Shown here: piece after piece, positions 46 through 49,882 of the stretch
How the letters are laid out: every line of letters begins with the position of its first letter
How positions within the stretch are numbered: position 1 is the first letter of the stretch
From: an uncultured Bacteroidales bacterium
GTDB taxonomy: Bacteria; Bacteroidota; Bacteroidia; Bacteroidales; Muribaculaceae
Direction: 5' to 3'
NCBI GenBank assembly: GCA_902776435.1
Contig: CACYQB010000007.1
Span: 124,001 to 188,000 of the forward strand
DNA length: 64,000 bases
The notes under the pieces: model-generated
Database searches by the model: none
What the model saw: the letters and a program-made list of their open reading frames with translations, nothing else
Told to the model about the DNA's origin: nothing
Position numbers and translations under genes: made by a program

Positions 46-3000
46 TTAGAACCTTACTTTTATTGCTTTATCTTTGAAATGAATGATGTAAATGCCTTCC
101 ACATCAGTTGGATATACATTATGACCAACTTGAACAAAATACTCATCTACGATTCTACCGTCAACTGCTATGAGTTGTACATAACCCTCAACAGGAGTAT
201 CAACAATAATGTTGCTATTCTCAACATAGATACGAATGTCATCAATCAACTCATACACTGAACTCGGTTCAACATATTCTATGCATGAGGCATCAAAGCT
301 TTGACTATTCAAGTTGCGCTCTGCAAATAGGATGTCTGAGAATTCAATATCAGTGCCCGGGAGATAGTATCTGTCTGCTTTAAGCCTTAATTTCAACAAT
401 TTTGGGCAAACGCCATCCACCTCGTCATCAGAGAAAGAAGTACCTAGCAAACGGATTTTACCATCAGGCATCAAAGCAGTTACTAGTCCAAGATTAGCAG
501 CATCTTCTCCTAATGAGGCTTCAATAAGTTCCAAACCACGAGGCAACTGCAAATCCATCTGGAATCCAGCAAAATTGAAGTCACCGACAATTCCAAGATT
601 GATTTCCCTCTCGTCACCAGCATTCAATCTCAACACTTCACAGAATATACGGTTTTCCACCCCTCCTCGGATGGGTGCTTGCCTTATTGTTATCGGTTTT
701 AACTCAAGTGCAATATTGGTGATGCCCACAAGATCAACTACATCAAGTGAGTAATTGTTATCGACATTAGCGGCATCAGAATAGAACGGTGACGGGGACT
801 TACCTAGAATCTTACTTGCTGTAGCTGCGTGGTCTGCAATATCGACAATCGCATTTGCATCCGCATCACCTACTATGTAATAGAAGCGAACTGATGTGGA
901 AGTATTATTCAATGCATGTCGTGTCTCATCTGCCTCAGACGCAATTATATTTGAAATACCAATAGTGTAATTTCCAACATTGTGTAATTGTGGTAATAGC
1001 ATATTCATGTGAACGAGAACCCCATCATTGCCTTTTAGGTCCTTTGCCGACGACGAAGTAACAAGTACACGGTATTTCCCATTGCTCAACTGGCTCACAG
1101 AAACACTATGGGTTCGTGTTTTACGGGCATCATCCAACCATACATCAGGCACACCATCAACGAAATTAAACGACACATCATTAGGCAACGACACGTCAAA
1201 TTGAATACCAGAAATCAAATTTTTGTTGATTAATGTTACTGGGAGATCAACAACTTGAGTTGACGAACCCCTGATATGTGACAAGGTATCGAGTGTGATA
1301 TAATAATCAGGCAACACTTCTACCGTACAATTAGCATAAACATTACTGCCATCAGTTGCTCTAGCCCTGATGTAAGTTGTTCCATCAGAAATAGCTGTAA
1401 CCAAACCATTATTATCAGCTCGAGCTATAGATGTATTACCCGAGCTCCACGATAATACCTTATTGGATGCATTGTAGGGCTCCACGTCAGCTATCAATTG
1501 TGCCGTTTCTCCTAAGTGCATAACAAGTTTGCTTTCGCTGAGTGTGATTGATGTGACATATTGCTTGATCACCGTCACTTGACACGTTGCGCTTAAGTTA
1601 CTACCATCGGTTGTTGTTGCCTTAATCGTGGCCGTTCCTGGATTAACAGATGTGATATATCCATTACTATCAACTGCAGCAACATCCGTGTTGCTGCTGG
1701 TCCAATGTAATGACTTGTTCGTCGCATCACTTGGAGTAATCGTTACAGTTAATTGTACTGATTCCGGCAGCACGAGAGATATGTTGCTCTCATTCAGCGT
1801 AATACTCTTCACTTTCCTGAGAACGGTTACCTCACATGATGCACTAAGGTTCGTGCCATCAGTAGTAGAGGCTTTGATGGTCACAGAACCAATAGATACA
1901 GGTGTCACAAGACCATCATCATCCACTATAGCAACAGATGTGTTACTTGAGGTCCATGTCACATTTTTATAGGAGGCATCAATAGGCGATATAGATGCTA
2001 TAAGTCTGAAGGTTTCATTGACATCTAACGTTAAACTCGTTTTATTCAAGGAAATTGACGTAACAGGAATTAATAACACTGTAATCTCGCAAGAAGCACT
2101 CAAATTAGTTCCATCAGTTGTCGTTGCTTTTATTGTTGCATTCCCCTCCTTCTTAGCTGTAACAAGTCCCTCATTATTTACAGTTGCAACACTATTATCA
2201 CTTGAAGACCATTGTACTGTCTTGTTTGTTGCAACGCCAGGTAAAACTGTTGCAGTCAGCATAAAATATTCGCCAACATTTAGATTCTTATATGTCGCAT
2301 TAAGACTTATACCGTCGGCCAAAATATTACCTTCTGAATCTAGTCCGTATGCTCTAGAAAACTTATTCCAATAATTAGTAGTTTTATAAGTTTCAAGAGA
2401 CTGATATGGGACAAAAAGAGTAGAGCTGTTATACGTGGACGAGTTGAAACAGTTACTCTCCTCCATCACGGGTGGCAATTCAGCAAAACAATAGACTGAC
2501 TGCAATCCAGTGCAATAATTGAAAGCATTCTTACCAATTGTCCTCAAAGAATTTGGTAATGATATAAATTTTAATGCAGAACAATCATAGAACGCAGAAC
2601 TCTCTATAGATATCACTGAATTTCCCATACTTAATTCAGTCATACAATTACATCCATAAAAAGCGAAGCCTCCAATTGAATTGACAGCATTTCCTATAGT
2701 GACCGTTCTTAGTGTAGTTAAGTCCTTCGCGAAATAAGCAGGAATTCTTTGGACTTCATCACCAATTTGAATGGACGATATAAAAGTTCGCGTAAAAGGA
2801 AGATAAGATGAATTAAAATCAGTACAGGACATTGCATTAAAGTGAAGTTCTGTCAATGATGAGCAATATGCAAAAGCATGTCTACCGATGGATGAGACAG
2901 TACTAGGGATAGTAATACTTGTCAATTGAGTCAAACCATATACGAAATAGTTTGGAATCGTTCTAACACCATCTCCAATGTTTATTATTTTGATATTGAG

Positions 3001-3921
3001 ATCGTTAAAGGGGCGATCACTATCAGTTCTACTAAAACCATCACAAGATATTGCATTATAATTAAGAATATTTAATGATGTACATCTTTGGAATGCAGCA
3101 TTGCCAATGGATGTTACCGAATTGGGTATAGTCATCGTCGTTAGTCCTGAGCAGTTATAGAATGCCGAACGACCAATTGATGTGACGGAATTGGGAATAG
3201 TCACATTCGTTAGTCCTGTACAGTCCGAGAATGAGAATTCGCCAATGGAAGTCACTGAACTATTAAAGGAAATATCGGTAAAATTACTACATCCAACAAA
3301 TGCGTAATCCTTAATTGCAGTTATAGTACTAGGGATTGCTAAAGACTTTATTTCTTCACCATTCAAAGTTAAATGATGAGCAATACTACAAGGGTTTGAG
3401 TATTCACCTTCAAAGGAAATCCTACACCAAGCTTCAAGGTCATCGATATTTACGTTCGTCAATCCAGAACACCCATAAAAAGCGTACGTGCCCATATAAT
3501 TCACCGAGCTAAGAATATGGATTGAAGTTAATGCACTACAACGAGCAAAAGCCTCGAATTCGATTGACCGTATCGAGTTTCCAAAAGTCACACTAGTCAA
3601 ACTTGTACAACCATCAAATGCATTAGTCCCGATGTATTCAACGTTATCGTCGACTAATATACTTGTTAGATTTGTACAATTTCTGAATGCTTTGGATCCA
3701 ATTCCAGTAACTTTATAAGTAGTGAAATTTTTATTGACTGTGTAAGGAATTCTCACAGAACCAGAATACGGGTTAGAACTCGGAGCGGGAGCAACTACAA
3801 CTTCACCACTATAACCTGAACGGTAATTATAATATATGCCATCTACCTCAAAATCAAATGCAAATAATGGTGTGGCACACAATACCATCAGTAGAAAAAA
3901 TAGATTTTTGATTATTCTCAT
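46..3921 (-). CDS. Large secreted BspA-like LRR protein with Ig-like, cohesin-like and dockerin-like domains
   Basis: A 1291-residue protein with an N-terminal signal peptide (hydrophobic run ending near residue 22). Residues about 50-510 are BspA/LRR_5-type leucine-rich repeats with recurring 'IPNSVTSIG..AF..C..L' units. Four Big_2 (bacterial Ig-like) domains follow at roughly 535-870, each with 'W.SS..SVA.V...G.V' signatures. Next come a cohesin-like beta segment (about 875-1000), a dockerin-like pair of EF-hand loops ('VGDADANAIVDIADH', 'AANVDNNYSLDVVDLVG', about 1015-1075), a second cohesin-like segment (about 1085-1230) and a C-terminal segment with 'VDGRIVDE' and 'GIYIIHFKDKAIKVRF' that resembles a type IX secretion sorting domain. 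It probably acts at the cell surface in adhesion or assembly; this is inferred from family. Its ATG overlaps the stop of the upstream hydrolase (ATGA), so translation is coupled. The gene is visibly AT-richer than the later genes. Confidence 0.85.
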   Translation of the reverse strand: MRIIKNLFFLLMVLCATPLFAFDFEVDGIYYNYRSGYSGEVVVAPAPSSNPYSGSVRIPYTVNKNFTTYKVTGIGSKAFRNCTNLTSILVDDNVEYIGTNAFDGCTSLTSVTFGNSIRSIEFEAFARCSALTSIHILSSVNYMGTYAFYGCSGLTNVNIDDLEAWCRISFEGEYSNPCSIAHHLTLNGEEIKSLAIPSTITAIKDYAFVGCSNFTDISFNSSVTSIGEFSFSDCTGLTNVTIPNSVTSIGRSAFYNCSGLTTMTIPNSVTSIGNAAFQRCTSLNILNYNAISCDGFSRTDSDRPFNDLNIKIINIGDGVRTIPNYFVYGLTQLTSITIPSTVSSIGRHAFAYCSSLTELHFNAMSCTDFNSSYLPFTRTFISSIQIGDEVQRIPAYFAKDLTTLRTVTIGNAVNSIGGFAFYGCNCMTELSMGNSVISIESSAFYDCSALKFISLPNSLRTIGKNAFNYCTGLQSVYCFAELPPVMEESNCFNSSTYNSSTLFVPYQSLETYKTTNYWNKFSRAYGLDSEGNILADGISLNATYKNLNVGEYFMLTATVLPGVATNKTVQWSSSDNSVATVNNEGLVTAKKEGNATIKATTTDGTNLSASCEITVLLIPVTSISLNKTSLTLDVNETFRLIASISPIDASYKNVTWTSSNTSVAIVDDDGLVTPVSIGSVTIKASTTDGTNLSASCEVTVLRKVKSITLNESNISLVLPESVQLTVTITPSDATNKSLHWTSSNTDVAAVDSNGYITSVNPGTATIKATTTDGSNLSATCQVTVIKQYVTSITLSESKLVMHLGETAQLIADVEPYNASNKVLSWSSGNTSIARADNNGLVTAISDGTTYIRARATDGSNVYANCTVEVLPDYYITLDTLSHIRGSSTQVVDLPVTLINKNLISGIQFDVSLPNDVSFNFVDGVPDVWLDDARKTRTHSVSVSQLSNGKYRVLVTSSSAKDLKGNDGVLVHMNMLLPQLHNVGNYTIGISNIIASEADETRHALNNTSTSVRFYYIVGDADANAIVDIADHAATASKILGKSPSPFYSDAANVDNNYSLDVVDLVGITNIALELKPITIRQAPIRGGVENRIFCEVLRLNAGDEREINLGIVGDFNFAGFQMDLQLPRGLELIEASLGEDAANLGLVTALMPDGKIRLLGTSFSDDEVDGVCPKLLKLRLKADRYYLPGTDIEFSDILFAERNLNSQSFDASCIEYVEPSSVYELIDDIRIYVENSNIIVDTPVEGYVQLIAVDGRIVDEYFVQVGHNVYPTDVEGIYIIHFKDKAIKVRF

Positions 3922-5078
3922 TTGGATGTGATTTTAAACGTGTTAATATCAAATAATAGTACAAGCATCGAACTCCTATCTTCGCATACAATCCTTATAC
4001 TATGTTCCTCAAAAAAGTTATTATGATGAATAATAGGCATACATTTACGTGTGTCTAGAAATAATGAACAGTTTGTTATTACCATAGGAGACGGATGTCC
4101 ATATCTATTGTAATTTCCACAAGAAAGGAACATAATCGGATAAACCGATTCATTCTTAAGCAACTGGAATAAAGTATCATGAAATGAATATCCAGAACCA
4201 TGGTGAGGAATTTGAATCATAAGAATATTATAACATCTTTTACCTAAATGATTCGAAATGCGCCCAACAATATCATTATTAAATGATGCATCTCCAGTAT
4301 AAAAACAACCATTGGGAGAATGACTACCTTCACTACGGTTTATTCCTGTTTCATGAAGTCCTGAATAAACCATCAATGAGTTAGTATTAATTGATTCTAT
4401 GGGTGTTCTTGATTTGAGCATATTCTGAAAATCCTTGTCTCCAATCCTACTATTTAATTCAGATTCACTTATTTGAAATGTATTCACAATACATTTCAAC
4501 CTCTCATCATAAAAAAGATTATATGGAATGTACTCCCACATTAAAGACATTCTACTCAATGACTTCATTGTAATTAATGTACCACTGTCAATAATAGGCT
4601 CCGACTCTTCAACATTTACAGGCGTACTCATTTGTTTTATGCCTTTATCGATACTCTTTACACAAATGACATGTGAACCTGAGAAATATGTCTCAGGACT
4701 TTCAATAAGTTTTTCAAGATTACCACCTTTATTCCTTGGTCTTAATGCTGCTAATAGAAGTAATCTTGTATTATCGTTGTACAAAGGAATCACCACATGC
4801 TTAATATTTGTCAGTTCTTTTAGTTTTGCAATGCCATTAATGTGATCTTCATGGAAATGAGATATAAATAAGATATCAATATCTTGTTTGCCTTTAGTGC
4901 AATCGAACATATTATCAACTTCACGTATAATTCCTTTCATATTTGAAGTTGAGCCACAGTCATAGACAACTGTAGCAATTCTTTGATTATCTTCATCGAA
5001 GAATTGCTCCGTATAGAAAGCACCTTGACCTATCGGATGTATATACCGAATGAGTTTCATACAATTCTCTTGACGCAA
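3918..5078 (-). CDS. Metallo-beta-lactamase-fold hydrolase, ComEC-like
   Basis: A 386-residue protein without a signal peptide, so probably cytoplasmic. The metal-binding signature 'HFHEDHINGI' lies near residue 95. A later 'YTGDAS' aspartate and the 'IPHHGSGYS' block are the usual arrangement of the ComEC/Rec2 C-terminal hydrolase and related nucleic-acid-acting MBL enzymes. There are no ComEC membrane segments, so this is a free-standing hydrolase. The reaction is unknown; nuclease or phosphodiesterase activity is a family inference. A start at the second Met (5060, MKLIRYI) is equally possible. Its stop codon overlaps the ATG of the giant LRR protein, which makes the two a coupled operon. 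A TATATTTG box lies upstream at 5141-5148. Confidence 0.75.
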   Translation of the reverse strand: MRQENCMKLIRYIHPIGQGAFYTEQFFDEDNQRIATVVYDCGSTSNMKGIIREVDNMFDCTKGKQDIDILFISHFHEDHINGIAKLKELTNIKHVVIPLYNDNTRLLLLAALRPRNKGGNLEKLIESPETYFSGSHVICVKSIDKGIKQMSTPVNVEESEPIIDSGTLITMKSLSRMSLMWEYIPYNLFYDERLKCIVNTFQISESELNSRIGDKDFQNMLKSRTPIESINTNSLMVYSGLHETGINRSEGSHSPNGCFYTGDASFNNDIVGRISNHLGKRCYNILMIQIPHHGSGYSFHDTLFQLLKNESVYPIMFLSCGNYNRYGHPSPMVITNCSLFLDTRKCMPIIHHNNFFEEHSIRIVCEDRSSMLVLLFDINTFKITSK

Positions 5079-5140
5079 TAAATATTAATTCACTTTCGGT
5101 TAAGCAATTACCCTTATAGAAAAAACGTTTGTACTTGCCT

Positions 5141-5148
5141 CAAATATA
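5141..5148 (-). promoter_or_regulatory. Putative -7 box of MBL-LRR operon
   Basis: TATATTTG on the minus strand matches the Bacteroidetes TAnnTTTG -7 consensus, about 60 bases before the hydrolase start. No clear TTG -33 element is visible. The rest of 5079-5281 shows no gene. Confidence 0.45.
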
Positions 5149-5281
5149 AGACCTATACGCCATATCTTATCACTTATCAAGTAACGCATATCAACATTAC
5201 TAGGTTCATCAACTAGATTGCTTCTTTTCAAGATAACTTCACCTTAATTTCTATGATTGTTCAGAGACTAGATTAGTTCTT

Positions 5282-5440
5282 TCATGAATAGGACTTTATG
5301 ATGGCTTCTCCCGAAGCCTTATTATTGGGAACAATTACCATCTCATGCAAATCATTTATTCTGTTTTTTACCCAATCGATATATTCTTCGTCACTCATGT
5401 TCATTTTTGCTTTGTTCCAGCGGCTCCCATGCTGGTTCAT
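5282..5440 (-). CDS. Small hypothetical protein downstream of the structured RNA
   Basis: A 52-residue ORF beginning MNQHGSRWNK and rich in charged residues ('MSDEEYIDWVKNRINDLHEM'), with a helical, soluble character and no signal peptide. The frame stays open upstream to a TTG at 5548, but that extension runs through the helices of the RNA candidate, so I prefer the ATG at 5440. It begins about 38 bases after the last predicted helix of that RNA and may be the gene the RNA controls. No family recognised. The CCAGC...GCTGG hairpin at its own start codon region could instead mean that this segment also belongs to the RNA. Confidence 0.4.
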   Translation of the reverse strand: MNQHGSRWNKAKMNMSDEEYIDWVKNRINDLHEMVIVPNNKASGEAIIKSYS

Positions 5441-5477
5441 TTTACAATAAAATATGGTATGAGCATAAAAATAAGCG

Positions 5478-5761
5478 CGGGAGTCTGTTATTGTTACTCG
5501 TCCCGCTCTCAGGGGCTCTCGCATTGCCCATCGAAGTTGAACGAGCAACGCAGAAACCCACGCAGAATATGGCTTTGCCTAATCTGACAAATAATCATAT
5601 TCAGCATTGGGCATCTACCGTTGCTTCATCCTTGACTTCGATTTAGAATTTGCGAGATTCCTGAGAGCCAAGTACAAAGCGCCAATAAACGCCTTTCTTT
5701 ATGTCATGTGTTCTCTGCTATGCGTCCGACTCCATCAAAGAGCGGACTACCGACAAAGAAC
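5478..5761 (-). ncRNA. Candidate structured RNA or structured leader with nested helices
   Basis: Read on the minus strand from about 5761. Perfect complementary arms are nested in order: 5505-5513 with 5660-5668, 5518-5523 with 5651-5656, 5530-5537 with 5635-5642, 5544-5550 with 5619-5625, and 5565-5571 with 5596-5602. Short internal loops of similar length lie between them, giving a rod. A 5' hairpin pairs 5724-5728 with 5743-5747, plus 5730-5732 with 5740-5742. A 3' hairpin pairs 5478-5482 with 5501-5505. A TATATTTG promoter sits at 5767-5774, so the start of transcription would be near 5761. 5525-5530 can also pair with 5608-5613, as a pseudoknot or alternative fold. Not recognised as RNase P, tmRNA, 6S or SRP RNA. 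Whether it is a free ncRNA or the leader of the 52-residue ORF is open. Confidence 0.5.
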
Positions 5762-5766
5762 AACTG

Positions 5767-5774
5767 CAAATATA
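5767..5774 (-). promoter_or_regulatory. Promoter of structured RNA
   Basis: TATATTTG (TAnnTTTG) on the minus strand with a TTG about 22 bases upstream. The predicted start falls at the first base of the folded region. Confidence 0.55.
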
Positions 5775-5847
5775 GTCATTATTTCACAATTTCACCCAAC
5801 TTGCATGCATTTATTACAATTAAAATTGAAACGATATGATTTTTTCG

Positions 5848-5855
5848 TATTTTTG
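5848..5855 (+). promoter_or_regulatory. Orphan plus-strand promoter
   Basis: TTG at 5826-5828, 19-base spacer, then TATTTTTG. It points to the right into the 3' end of the minus-strand ATPase gene, with no plus-strand gene behind it. It may drive an antisense RNA or be left over from a lost gene. No gene is visible in the rest of 5775-5956. Confidence 0.35.
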
Positions 5856-5956
5856 CTTAATTAATAGGAAAACGACAGAACTGAATGGTCCATAATGATT
5901 CTATTTTCCATCTTTCTCACTCGATTGATTCTGTCTTCTCTTAGGTTGGCATTATG

Positions 5957-7279
5957 TTATACCTCAGTCAGCAGGAATGCCATGTACAATGGCAAGGTCA
6001 ACAGCAATCCATCGCGGCCCACATTGTAGTCTCCAACCTTAATGGCAGAATCGACATGGTAATGCTCAGGATGCTTCAATACGGTCTTCAAGGACTTGGC
6101 GTTGCCTGTGGTTGCTTTGCATTCCAATGGGCAGCACTTGCCTTTGTAGCGAATTAAGAAATCAAGTTCCAAACTCTCACCTTTCTGGAAATAATAAAGT
6201 GATCGACCCATCTTCCCAAGTATATCAGCAACCAGGTTTTCAAAGATGGCACCTTTATAGTCGAGCATATCACCCTGCAGAATGCTCCATGCCGTTCCCT
6301 GTTCCAACATAGAGACAAGCAAACCAATGTCAGCCATATATACCTTGAAGCAATCAGGAATAGCATTCCCTGCAAGGGGCAACTCGGTAATTCTGGTATT
6401 GTGACACCGACGAATGATTCCTGCGTCCTCTATCCATTGTAAACTGCTCCGATATTGAGCTGAACGCGCACCCTTTTTGATAACAGAATACTGGAATTTT
6501 TTGTTATCCTTTGCAAGTTGAGCAGGTATTGACTCAAAACAATCCCTAATGCGTGCTTTATCTTCTGTTAGAGCATATTTCAACATATCTGCTTTATAAT
6601 TTTCGATAATACTATGCTGAACAGCAAGCACATCATTCATATTATTCGTTTCAAAAAAGGTACTGACTGCTTCAGGCATACCACCGACAACAACATATCG
6701 CAATAATAGTTCACGCATTCGATGATGTATTGCCTCATTAACTGGTTCTTCTCGTTCCAAGCATCCTTTCAAATAGTCAATATGTTGCTGCTGAACACCA
6801 TTGGCCCACAACCATTCTTCAAAATCCATTGGGTACATATCGACGATATGTTCAAATCCTACTGGAATTGAAGCATTAAGATCCTCATTTCTGTATCCAT
6901 TAACACCTAAAAGAGACCCAGTGCATATTACATCGAAACGACCATCTATTTTGAAAAACTTGAGTGAGGCCCTGGCCCTAGGGCATTCTTGTATCTCATC
7001 AAAGACGATGCAGGTTTTTCCTGGAATAAATTTAGTACCAGGAATGCCAACACTCATGTTCAGTGTTAAGGTGCCTACATCAAGGGCTCCAGCAAAAAAA
7101 GCACAATACTCGTCATGTTCATGGAAATCAAGATAAACTACACATTCATAGTGTTTGCTAGCAAAATCCATGACCGAACTAGTCTTGCCACACTGACGAC
7201 ATCCCTTGATTACCAATGGTTTTCGTTTAGAATTCTCTTTCCAATGTAAAAGTATATTTTCTATCTTCCTTCTATACAT
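5957..7279 (-). CDS. AAA family ATPase with DUF4143
   Basis: A 440-residue cytoplasmic ATPase. The Walker A motif is 'IKGCRQCGKTSS' near residue 25 and the Walker B is 'CIVFDEIQECPRAR' near 90-105. A sensor-like 'FDVICTGSLLGV' follows, which is the AAA_14 layout. The C-terminal half has the DUF4143 pattern, ending with the nuclease-like 'LDFLIRYKGKCCPLECKAT' (E-x-K), which resembles a restriction-endonuclease fold. Members are very common and multicopy in Bacteroidetes, often called archaeal-type or 'ATP-binding protein', and their physiological role is not established. A 33-bp tandem repeat array carrying promoter-like boxes lies immediately upstream. A second, more distant ATPase of this general type sits at 43895-45100. 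Confidence 0.85.
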   Translation of the reverse strand: MYRRKIENILLHWKENSKRKPLVIKGCRQCGKTSSVMDFASKHYECVVYLDFHEHDEYCAFFAGALDVGTLTLNMSVGIPGTKFIPGKTCIVFDEIQECPRARASLKFFKIDGRFDVICTGSLLGVNGYRNEDLNASIPVGFEHIVDMYPMDFEEWLWANGVQQQHIDYLKGCLEREEPVNEAIHHRMRELLLRYVVVGGMPEAVSTFFETNNMNDVLAVQHSIIENYKADMLKYALTEDKARIRDCFESIPAQLAKDNKKFQYSVIKKGARSAQYRSSLQWIEDAGIIRRCHNTRITELPLAGNAIPDCFKVYMADIGLLVSMLEQGTAWSILQGDMLDYKGAIFENLVADILGKMGRSLYYFQKGESLELDFLIRYKGKCCPLECKATTGNAKSLKTVLKHPEHYHVDSAIKVGDYNVGRDGLLLTLPLYMAFLLTEV

Positions 7280-46299: not shown

Positions 46300-46861
46300 T
46301 AATGCTCGCTGCACTCGTAGTTTAGAGTTTAAAGAGGTATCCGCATTCCTTTAATTGTTACAACAACTGAACCATCTGATAGCACTGAGAATCAGACTCG
46401 GACTTTTCGGATAGTTCACTTGTTTATGCCAATCAGTAGGTTAAAATAAAACATTCTTTGATAAATATCAATCTCAGTGTCCACAACACAATAATTACAT
46501 GCCACAGTTATTTTATCGGACGCTTTTTTGGCTTTATGCGTTATTATCACTAATTTTGTCACCGTGCTTTTGAAGACATTCTATAAAGCACAAAAGACAT
46601 ATTAAAGAGCGAATTCTTTCGAGTAACGTTAGCTGCGTTATCCTTCTATTGAAATCTCGACAATTTCAACTTACTCTGGATAACAAGCATAGATGTTCGC
46701 ACCTGTATAGGTGTGGGCTGTTGGCTTGTATTGAGTAAGGGCAGTCGAGAGCCTCAATGGAGATACTAAGTGACAGATTCATACCTTTTTTGTGTCTTTA
46801 CATGAGAATGACATTTCATTTATTCACCTATTTATTAACAATTTAAAGACACAAAACAGTC
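46300..46861 (+). promoter_or_regulatory. 562-base spacer with structured leader-like segment
   Basis: No gene is seen. Near its 3' end CACCTGTATAGGTG (46700-46713) forms a short hairpin, and ATTGAG (46730-46735) pairs with CTCAAT (46753-46758) around a 17-base loop. A TACCTTTT at 46792-46799 is a near match to a -7 box. It may be a 5' leader or regulatory region of the LRR-dockerin gene. Confidence 0.3.
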
Positions 46862-49800
46862 ATGGTTTACAAGAAATTACTCTTTTTGTTCCTGCTGACA
46901 CTACTCATGCCAGCCACCGCCAACGCCTTGTACTTTACTGTCAATTACATCTCTTACAGTACCAACGGCACCAATGCCACAGTAACTGGCACTTCCCACA
47001 CGTCATCTACTACCAGTGGATACCTGACCATCCCTTCCACGGTCACCTATGAAGGAACGACCTATAATGTCACTGCCATCAGTGCTTCAGCCTTCAGTTC
47101 AAAATCGTGGCTTAAGTCCATATCCATCCCGGCCTCGGTAACCTCCCTGGGCACTAAAGCGTTCTATGCATGCTCAAATATAACAAGCATCACGCTCTCT
47201 ACCAGTGCCATCACTTCTATTGGAGAGTCCACCTTCCAGAACTGTAGCAGCCTGACAGGCATCACACTCCCCAACACCGTCAAGGAGATTGGAATTCGCG
47301 CATTCAGTGGTTGTTCAAGCATGACAACTGCCAATATAGGTAGTTCCGTGGAGACTATAGGCAATTATGCATTCTCTAATTGTTCGAAGCTGACGAGTAT
47401 CAACATCCCCAACACCACAACTTCCATCGGCACTAGCGCCTTCTCTTATTGCTCGGCAATGACAACCGCAACCCTTGGCAGTTCCGTGGAGACGATAGGC
47501 AATAGTGCATTCACCTCTTGCTCAAAGCTGACGAGGATTGACATTCCCAATGCCACGACGTCGATTGGCACCTACACTTTTTATAACTGCTCGGCATTGA
47601 CTACCGCGACTCTTGGCAATTCCGTGGAATCTATTGGATATTATGCATTCCAGGGTTGTGCGAAGCTGACAGGCATCAACATTCCCAACTCAGTCAAAAC
47701 CATTGATGGCTACGCATTTACCGGTTGTACCGCTCTGGCAACGGCTACCTTTGGCAACTCGCTCCAGAGCATCGGCAACAGCGCGTTTAAGGACTGCTCC
47801 AGCTTGGCTAGCATTTCTATTCCCAACACAGTCACGAGCATCGGACGATGGGCATTCGCAGGTTGCACCAGTCTGAATAGCGCAACTCTCTCAAATGCCA
47901 TCACCGTAATCAACGACTCCACATTTGCCCATTGCAGCCTCACGAGTCTGGTCATTCCCAACTCAGTTAAGACCATCGGCAAGAAGGCGTTTCTACAAAA
48001 TGAGAGCTTGGGTAGCGTGTCGTTTGGCAACTCTCTGGAGACGATTGGGGAACAGGCTTTCTATGGATGCTCTGGCTTGGCAAGCATCACAATCCCCAAC
48101 TCGGTGAAGACCATCGGCATCAATGCCTTTAGAGGCTGTTCACGTGCGACCACATTGACCTTGCCCAATTCCATCACCACTATTGGCAACTACGCATTCT
48201 ATGGATGTACGGGATTGACAAACGTGACCATTCCCAACTCAATGACGTCCATCAGCGCTGGTTTATTCTATGGTTGCACGGGCCTGATCAACATCAACAT
48301 CCCCAACACCATCGCCACTATCGGAGGATCGGCGTTTTATCAATGTACCAGTTTGACCGATTTGACCATTCCTAACTCCGTCACGGACATCGGCGCATCA
48401 GCTTTCTATGGCTGCACAGGACTGACGAGCGTCAATATTCCCAATTCGGTCACAAACGTCGGAAGCAGCGCCTTTGCCTATTGCTCGGGCTTGACCAGTG
48501 CGACCATCGGCAATAGCGTTGCAACCATCGGCAGTTATGCGTTCAGGGATTGTACGGGTTTGACGACCCTGTCGATTCCCAAATCGGTCACATCTATCGG
48601 GACTGGCGGTTTCTCGGGCTGCACAGGGTTAAAGTCGTTGTATTTTAACGCTCAGAATTGTGCTGACTTCACTGCCAATAACAGCAGTTACCAGTACTAT
48701 AGTGTCTTCTATAATTGTCCATTGGAAATCATTGTCACTGGCAATGAAGTGGCACGCATCCCCGCCTACATGACAGGATATGCCAAGAAAGCTTCCCTCA
48801 CCACACTGATTATCGGTAACCAGGTTGCCAACATCGGCGATTATGCATTCCAGGGTTGTACCAACTTGACAGGGCTGACACTGCCAAATTCCATTGCCAG
48901 CATGGGTGCTAACTCGTTCACGGGTTGCACCAAGCTCAAGACACTCTACATCTCGGGTAATGGTGAATGGATGGCAGGTAAATTGCCCATGAATACTGCA
49001 ATCGAGACCCTTTACATCGGTAGCGGTATTACCTTGCTGAGCGATATGCAAGTGAATCCGGCAAATGTTTATTCTTTTGCCGCCGAGCCTCCCACATGTC
49101 ACAGCAACGCATTCTCGGGCTACACGGGAGTGCTGCACGTCCCCGCCACCTCGTTTGCAGATTACTGCTTTGCCCCCACTTGGGAAAACTTTAACAACGT
49201 TGAGGCAAACGCCATTGAACCCAAGTCAATCGTCTTGAGCCAAACCAGTTTGGAATTGACACCGGATTCTCAGGCTACATTGACGGCTAACTTAACTCCA
49301 GTTGAGTCTAATCCCAACACGATTATGTGGTATACGAGTGATCCCAGTGTGGCTACCGTAGTCAATGGCGTAGTTACAGCAATTGCTTTAGGCGAATGTG
49401 ATATCGTCGCTTACTGCTATCCCGTGGTTAGTGTTTGTCATGTAGTTGTGGGTTCTAATGTCATCATCACGCTGGATAAGCACAAAATCTGGCTAATGCC
49501 CAACCATATGGAAACATTGACCGCTACCGTAACACCTGTTGCCACAGAGCTCGAAGTGACTTCGAGTGACCCCACTGTAGCCAACGCACGTATTGTAAAT
49601 GGTGCTATACGTGTTGTGGCCATCAAGTCAGGCACAACAATCGTTACCGTTGGCTCGGTTGATGGCACAGCCCAACCCGACACCTGCCAGGTTATTGTTT
49701 ACACCGAAGGTGGAGATGTTAATGGAGACGGCCGAATCAGTATCAGCGATGTCACCGCCTTGATTGACTTGTTGCTGGTAGGCGACAGCATTGAGAACCC

Positions 49801-49882
49801 CGTAGCCGATGTCAATGGTGATGGGAAAATCAGCATTTCAGACGTTACTGCCCTCATCGACAAACTATTAGCAGGAGACTAG
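46862..49882 (+). CDS. Large secreted BspA-like LRR protein with dockerin-like C terminus
   Basis: 1006 residues with a signal peptide (MVYKKLLFLFLLTLLMPATA). Residues about 60-770 are LRR_5 repeats of 22-24 residues ('IPNSVTSIG.SAF..C.GLT.V'), roughly 28 of them. Two Big_2-like Ig domains follow at about 785-940. The C terminus is a dockerin-like pair, 'DVNGDGRISISDVTALIDLL' and 'DVNGDGKISISDVTALIDKL'. Surface adhesion or protein binding is the usual BspA role; this is inferred. Related to the proteins at 46-3921 and 58468-60312. Confidence 0.88.
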   Translation: MVYKKLLFLFLLTLLMPATANALYFTVNYISYSTNGTNATVTGTSHTSSTTSGYLTIPSTVTYEGTTYNVTAISASAFSSKSWLKSISIPASVTSLGTKAFYACSNITSITLSTSAITSIGESTFQNCSSLTGITLPNTVKEIGIRAFSGCSSMTTANIGSSVETIGNYAFSNCSKLTSINIPNTTTSIGTSAFSYCSAMTTATLGSSVETIGNSAFTSCSKLTRIDIPNATTSIGTYTFYNCSALTTATLGNSVESIGYYAFQGCAKLTGINIPNSVKTIDGYAFTGCTALATATFGNSLQSIGNSAFKDCSSLASISIPNTVTSIGRWAFAGCTSLNSATLSNAITVINDSTFAHCSLTSLVIPNSVKTIGKKAFLQNESLGSVSFGNSLETIGEQAFYGCSGLASITIPNSVKTIGINAFRGCSRATTLTLPNSITTIGNYAFYGCTGLTNVTIPNSMTSISAGLFYGCTGLININIPNTIATIGGSAFYQCTSLTDLTIPNSVTDIGASAFYGCTGLTSVNIPNSVTNVGSSAFAYCSGLTSATIGNSVATIGSYAFRDCTGLTTLSIPKSVTSIGTGGFSGCTGLKSLYFNAQNCADFTANNSSYQYYSVFYNCPLEIIVTGNEVARIPAYMTGYAKKASLTTLIIGNQVANIGDYAFQGCTNLTGLTLPNSIASMGANSFTGCTKLKTLYISGNGEWMAGKLPMNTAIETLYIGSGITLLSDMQVNPANVYSFAAEPPTCHSNAFSGYTGVLHVPATSFADYCFAPTWENFNNVEANAIEPKSIVLSQTSLELTPDSQATLTANLTPVESNPNTIMWYTSDPSVATVVNGVVTAIALGECDIVAYCYPVVSVCHVVVGSNVIITLDKHKIWLMPNHMETLTATVTPVATELEVTSSDPTVANARIVNGAIRVVAIKSGTTIVTVGSVDGTAQPDTCQVIVYTEGGDVNGDGRISISDVTALIDLLLVGDSIENPVADVNGDGKISISDVTALIDKLLAGD

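Follow-up and report, generated by a model that had tools for sequence, protein, structure and literature searches.

A large family of structured 5' leader RNAs in Bacteroidales with conserved, mutually exclusive pairings: a possible attenuator, often ahead of exported-protein genes

The minus strand of positions 5478 to 5761 of the DNA analysed here, a stretch of 64,000 nucleotides from an uncultured Bacteroidales bacterium that we call the window, raises the question of what a long, rod-like RNA would be doing in a spacer. An earlier note, made from the letters alone, had read there five nested pairs of complementary arms behind a promoter-like box, and had proposed either a structured non-coding RNA or a riboswitch-like leader for a small ORF of 52 residues. 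All five pairs of arms are present in the sequence, with coordinates that we recomputed for all but the apical pair, and so is the box TATATTTG, which we take to be a −7 box of the Bacteroidetes type (Table 1). Chance is an unlikely source of the fold, as had been argued: the minus strand from 5440 to 5765 folded at −134.9 kcal/mol relative to −87.3 ± 4.9 kcal/mol for 100 dinucleotide shuffles, none of which reached the native energy (z −9.8); the plus strand of the same interval gave a z of −5.2. The note could name no RNA class for this structure, which agrees with the absence of any Rfam match: Rfam 15 gave no match on the window at gathering score, two tRNAs only on 20 relatives, and for positions 5200-5900 two hits only, with E-values of 2.2 and 3.5, far below their gathering scores. 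No description of the RNA was found in openly licensed PMC papers, as searched through titles and the starts of abstracts with mostly indirect terms.

Table 1. Features of the leader and other loci in the window (x/300, draws of the tree-aware null described in the text)
Feature	Position	Strand	Basis or remark
−7 promoter box TATATTTG	5767..5774	-	TAnnTTTG upstream in 118/131 copies
5' variable hairpin of leader	5709..5762	-	fold; variable in alignment
Hairpin P1loc, holding segment 1 (5684-5692; can pair with segment 2)	5678..5693	-	P1loc 95% canonical
Strand b, 5' side of H1, H2 and H3; alternatively local hairpin hpA	5635..5668	-	each 0/300
Segment 2, partner of segment 3 (rod) or segment 1	5609..5625	-	lower 2:3 97% canonical
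Apical stem-loop, length and sequence variable across copies	5565..5602	-	sequence, alignment
Segment 3, partner of segment 2 (rod) or segment 4 (terminator-like)	5539..5563	-	pairing tests
Strand b', 3' side of H1, H2 and H3; alternatively hairpin hpB	5505..5537	-	hpB 6/300
Segment 4, partner of segment 3 (3:4)	5475..5503	-	AT2 0/300, AT1 11/300
H1 arms	5660-5668/5505-5513	-	recomputed
H2 arms	5651-5657/5517-5523	-	recomputed
H3 arms	5635-5642/5530-5537	-	recomputed
2:3a arms	5620-5625/5544-5549	-	recomputed
Apical arms	5565-5571/5596-5602	-	read by eye
Hairpin T, smaller; 3' arm inside segment 4	5501-5506/5477-5482	-	0/300
Closing helix P0; 3' arm partly in segment 4; one mismatch in window copy	5689-5696/5471-5478	-	3/300
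U-tract, immediately past 3:4 stem	5465..5474	-	at least 7 T in 10 in 106/123 parsed copies
Small hairpin, loop AUGGGAGCC, between U-tract and downstream ORF	5417..5435	-	by eye
52-aa ORF	5282..5440	-	not conserved, probably not target
Metallo-beta-lactamase (MBL)-fold protein, next long downstream ORF	3918..5078	-	Pfam
BspA-type LRR / Big_2 protein; 4-base overlap with end of MBL ORF	46..3921	-	Pfam
Second, divergent RNA copy, compact	46644..46765	+	covariance model R1, 37.5 bits
Box TAATTTTG of second copy	46551-46558	+	
BspA-type LRR protein with dockerin domain, directly 3' of second copy	46862..49882	+	Pfam

The RNA is a member of a large family without an Rfam match. With the RNA as BLAST query, 45 of the genus's 101 genomes gave matches (E ≤ 0.001), and the approach suggested in the earlier note, a search of other Bacteroidales genomes by covariance model, recovered the family on a larger scale. 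The model, R1, covers the 183 positions of the rod, and its E-values are rough. Within the genus it matched 65 of the 101 genomes, a single genome carrying as many as 13 copies. Across the family, 342 of 397 genomes and 28 of 30 genera gave matches; at most six candidates were scored per genome here, and copy numbers are therefore lower bounds. At the level of the order, 37 of 295 genomes, in 26 of 184 genera, had a match. In a phylum sample of 247 genomes R1 matched the RNA's own genome only, and none of the 246 others. That genome has two copies, both inside the window, and the first is also matched weakly on its opposite strand; the second copy was missed by the genus and family genome scans and recovered in other R1 searches. 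When 29 related loci were compared with positions 4401-6800, homology was confined to about 5815-5441, and in most of the loci to about 5786-5463. A 20-base pattern matched at least 118 stretches in named genomes, and carriers among the matches listed include Prevotella denticola, Hallella mizrahii, Xylanibacter rodentium, Paraprevotella xylaniphila and Phocaeicola oris. Two Phocaeicola plasmids bear one copy, sense-oriented ahead of a hypothetical gene, and among viral contigs one matched the pattern. Over the R1 match and the sequence close to it, three copies from the window's genus (L005, L008, L009) do not differ from copies in records named uncultured Prevotellaceae bacterium. Three of the 80 listed pattern matches (L094, L147, L135) come from metagenome-assembled records labelled Pseudoflavonifractor, Clostridium and Clostridiales; these are probably mis-binned contigs, or may reflect transfer.

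Two sets of copies underlie the counts that follow. For the first, 140 of 147 model matches were carried on and eight duplicates were removed, leaving 132; the seven left out were two copies truncated where their contigs end (L096, L135), together with five weak matches, four of them on the opposite strand of known copies and one, at 28 bits, in L067. Removal of four more copies with short flanks or scores below 60 bits gave a 128-copy alignment. The 80 listed pattern loci had been picked because 20 bases of segment 3 matched exactly, so that conservation of segment 3 is inflated in this alignment. Because of that bias, we repeated the pairing tests on a second set of 132 copies found by BLAST or the model only; one of 133 had been dropped for its short flanks, and the order of de-duplication means that eight copies identical to pattern-scan copies are omitted.

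The orientation of neighbouring genes was strongly biased on one side of the RNA. Among the 132 distinct copies of the first set, the first downstream ORF of at least 100 aa was sense in 118, antisense in 4 and absent in 10 (nine of which have less than 600 nt of sequence left), and the nearest upstream ORF lay on the same strand in 65, on the opposite strand in 54 and was lacking in 13. The set without pattern-scan copies, partly made up of the same members and restricted to the 127 copies with 500 nt downstream, gave 125 sense versus 2 antisense for the first downstream ORF of at least 80 aa. This downstream sense bias, together with the random upstream strand, argues for a 5' leader rather than a stand-alone gene. 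The motif TAnnTTTG occurred 60-170 nt upstream of the R1 match, typically at about 100 nt, in 118 of the 131 copies with 200 nt of upstream sequence (shuffled mean 8.8, maximum 13), versus 10 of 127, near chance, in a control stretch 60-170 nt past the match. At the other end, at least 7 of the 10 bases past the last stem were T in 106 of 123 copies, these being the members of the 128-copy alignment with a parsable stem end. The ORF began a median of 87-88 nt past the R1 match, which we estimate to be roughly 40 nt past the U-tract; in the window copy the MBL gene begins about 390-405 nt past the U-tract, farther than usual. Small hairpins with a GGGAGCC-like loop were noticed ahead of the start codon, at 5417-5435 (minus strand) in the window and past the U-tract in other copies. 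Such hairpins, counted by a GRGAG or GRGTG loop, are enriched: of 107 copies that could be parsed, 31 had one (shuffled mean 8, maximum 12). We regard it as close to certain that the RNA is a structured cis leader.

By a crude hydropathy rule for exported proteins, 73 of 118 downstream proteins had a strongly hydrophobic N-terminus, whereas 48 did among 170 control ORFs taken from the upstream side (Fisher p 1.7e-8), and by this sequence measure the genes behind the leader are enriched for exported proteins. A Pfam scan of 116 of these proteins (L091 and L107 were left out) found LRR_5, the BspA-type LRR, in 12, Big_2 in 11 and dockerin in 9, and three members each of LytTR, glycosyltransferase 2 and ResIII. 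Small LytTR-like proteins were seen by eye behind the RNA at L013, L108 and L121, and are possible regulators under the same leader; a recurring 73-aa protein with the start MPRFIITTKQMKNANG stands behind the leader at L003, L005 and L008. One leader (L002) is 90% identical to that of the window over 254 bases, yet precedes a different gene, a mismatch suggesting that leaders and genes are reassorted. In the window, the first copy is followed by the 52-aa ORF, the MBL-fold ORF and then the BspA/Big_2 ORF; both copies stand upstream of a BspA gene, the second directly. The 52-aa ORF had no Pfam match, no relatives in viral contigs, and a match in its own genome only among the 101 genomes of the genus, whereas the leader is in 65 of these and precedes varied genes. 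The ORF is thus probably not the target of the leader, contrary to the earlier note; what stands of its riboswitch-like reading is a conserved 5' leader with mutually exclusive pairings.

The helices of the rod covary strongly. Model-free covariation in the 128 copies gave z values up to 48 for H1, H2 and H3. In 21 homologues, 92.7% of cells in the rod and P0 were paired, relative to 34-46% when the strands were slid by 1-3 columns, and 106 cells had changed on both sides, against 32.6 in shuffled alignments (reached in 0 of 500). This covariation and the fold beyond chance strongly support the claim of a structured non-coding RNA. As a further null we used one that keeps the tree and the changes per column, a simple custom procedure, not R-scape, run for 300 draws. 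It was reached in 0/300 draws for H1, H2, H3, 2:3a in the lower part of 2:3, AT2, T, L45 and hpA, and in 3/300 for P0, 6/300 for hpB, 10/300 for 2:3c at the top of 2:3, and 11/300 for AT1. The middle of 2:3 (2:3b) was without support against it (171/300), the 1:2 pairing, 90% canonical, failed to beat it (36/300), and P1loc gave 38/300.

Several of the conserved helices, namely 3:4 (AT1 and AT2), 1:2, L45, hpA, hpB, T and P0, are wholly or partly incompatible with the rod. When the set of 132 copies without pattern selection was ranked by near-universal runs (at least 7 pairs, each at least 85% canonical), the five longest were AT2 with 10 pairs, H1 and 1:2 with 9 each, and AT1 and H2 with 7 each; shuffles in blocks of 3 and 5 columns yielded 0.05-0.09 such runs on average, the longest of 8 pairs, and single-column shuffles none. 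In the window copy every pair of 1:2 and 3:4 can form. The switch pairing suggested earlier, 5525-5530 with 5608-5613, is also possible in the window copy, but the equivalent columns (104-108/202-206 of the 128-copy alignment) are essentially without covariation, with a summed z of 1 over five pairs and a mean of 91% canonical; better-conserved alternative pairings lie elsewhere. The state that combines 1:2 with 3:4 paired hardly better than shuffled in the 21 close copies, with 93.7% of cells versus 93.1% (3/500), and had only 7 double-changed cells (6/500). When the loops of P1 and T were compared for a possible contact, the mean longest complement was 4.23 versus 4.00 shuffled (0/500; 81 parsed copies), a small effect that we left aside. 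In one copy (L148, 5100-5195, minus strand) the base of the 3:4 stem has, by eye, changed on both sides and the smaller hairpin T is apparently lost, making this copy a natural test of which stem terminates. Conserved fold, cis position, promoter box and conserved mutually exclusive pairings are all computed properties of the family.

Predicted energies favoured the rod. With the RNA folded at equilibrium as far as the U-tract, the mean probability was 0.88 for 2:3, 0.01 for 3:4 and 0.08 for T, and 1:2 reached 0.04 even with the RNA ending before b'. When the two states were forced, the median gap between them was 2.3 kcal/mol, and the second state was the lower in 50 of 128 copies, pattern-chosen ones included; the forced folds lay a median of 17-20 kcal/mol above the free minimum. 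For the four segments overall, lower 2:3 and 3:4 are supported, 1:2 is widespread but does not beat the tree-aware null, and equilibrium favours the rod.

We propose that the leader acts in cis: transcription would start at its own promoter and run on into the following gene, and the leader would set how much of it passes the terminal stem and U-tract. Read from the 5' end, segments 1 and 2 flank b, the apical loop comes next, segments 3 and 4 flank b', and the U-tract and the gene come last. In the rod state, segment 2 would pair with segment 3 and b with b' through H1-H3, and the 2:3 pairing would make segment 3 unavailable to segment 4. In the second state, 1:2 and 3:4 would form, the latter as a long stem ending at the U-tract, a putative terminator, and b and b' would fold into small hairpins. 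One side of H2 lies in the loop of hpA and the other in that of hpB, so that the two loops could still pair with each other, and H2 may then persist from the loop contact of the second state to the helix of the rod. The second state would terminate transcription and the rod would allow readthrough; a metabolite, a protein or folding kinetics may drive the choice. Since equilibrium strongly favours the rod, the second state, if it forms, must be favoured by something, and because hairpin T might act as a terminator alongside the rod, it is uncertain which state is ON. A double pseudoknot with H1-H3 intact was rejected by reasoning on geometry, because 3:4 would then have to link the two ends of a helix some 25 pairs long. 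For conditional transcription termination as the mechanism, modelled on these pairings, we consider the odds about even. With one leader ahead of many genes, mostly for exported proteins, a common signal could set surface display. A bolder reading is that of an orphan RNA switch, a four-segment attenuator gated by the H2 loop-loop contact, which would co-ordinate exported and surface proteins on one common signal; we give it a probability of about one in three. Its targets, equally tentative as part of that reading, would be BspA-type LRR, Big_2 and dockerin proteins, together with glycosyltransferases, ResIII-domain proteins and LytTR regulators.

In the trp and his attenuators four segments follow in the order 1-2-3-4 upstream of a gene, 1:2 with 3:4 excludes 2:3, and 3:4 is followed by a U-tract. 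The leader has the same order of segments, a U-tract after 3:4 and the same position 5' of a gene. It differs in being far larger, in adding the b:b' helices and the H2 loop pairing, and in standing ahead of many different genes. If the switch were absent, the RNA would be a constitutive rod, which might shield the mRNA, serve as the binding site of a protein (an RNA chaperone, for example) or govern translation. The dominance of the rod in the equilibrium predictions is consistent with this, as are the double changes in the 21 close copies, nearly all of which fall in the rod, and the enrichment of the GRGAG/GRGTG-loop hairpin near the start codon (31/107 versus 8 shuffled). Such a rod leaves unexplained why segment 3 pairs near-universally with both segment 2 and segment 4 in the copies not chosen by pattern, and why a stem abuts the U-tract, and we consider it unlikely, though worth keeping in view.

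Riboswitches with transcriptional expression platforms combine a conserved fold and exclusive helices in a cis leader and may serve several genes per genome. The leader shares its conserved fold, exclusive helices, cis position and multiple genes per genome with them, and differs in having no Rfam match or known ligand. In the strict form of this reading, the conserved unpaired parts would bind one small molecule and the four segments would be the expression platform. Many near-invariant positions, the use of a single leader ahead of many genes and the mutually exclusive helices fit such a design; the downstream genes share no common pathway that would name a ligand, and this, with the missing Rfam match, leads us to doubt it somewhat more than the constitutive rod.

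The promoter box and the terminator-like 3' end would also suit a family of independent trans-acting sRNAs whose 3' ends lie at the terminal stem and U-tract; the gene behind would then be there by coincidence, or be transcribed through read-through. FopS and GibS of Bacteroides are described as a multicopy non-coding RNA family of Bacteroidaceae with a terminator-like 3' end, FopS being trans-acting with a single-stranded 5' stretch and a terminator hairpin (PMC11697453). The leader family likewise has a terminator-like 3' end, and with as many as 13 copies in one genome it resembles the FopS sRNAs of B. thetaiotaomicron in being multicopy; on a comparison of described architecture, its long rod in a 5' leader sets it apart from FopS (PMC11697453). 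The 118-to-4 downstream sense bias with a random upstream strand, and a promoter box past the RNA at near chance only (10/127), make this reading improbable. A mobile, MITE-like palindromic element whose RNA structure is a by-product would account for up to 13 copies per genome, for the lack of homology outside the unit in the loci compared and for the 90% identical leader ahead of a different gene, but is very improbable given the compensatory changes in 132 divergent copies, the promoter box and a sense orientation at odds with independence of orientation. Retron and 6S-like readings were dropped on the sense-strand bias, the promoter box and the absent Rfam match.

A survey of structured RNAs in human microbiomes reports thousands of candidates, listed in supplements, and a fragment of the leader RNA may be among them (PMC8040213). 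If our proposal is right, the leader would be a very common regulatory RNA, so far unlisted, in the Bacteroidales of gut, rumen and mouth. It would then tie surface-protein display to a shared signal at the RNA level, and the conserved alternative pairings make this link directly testable with mutants and reporters.
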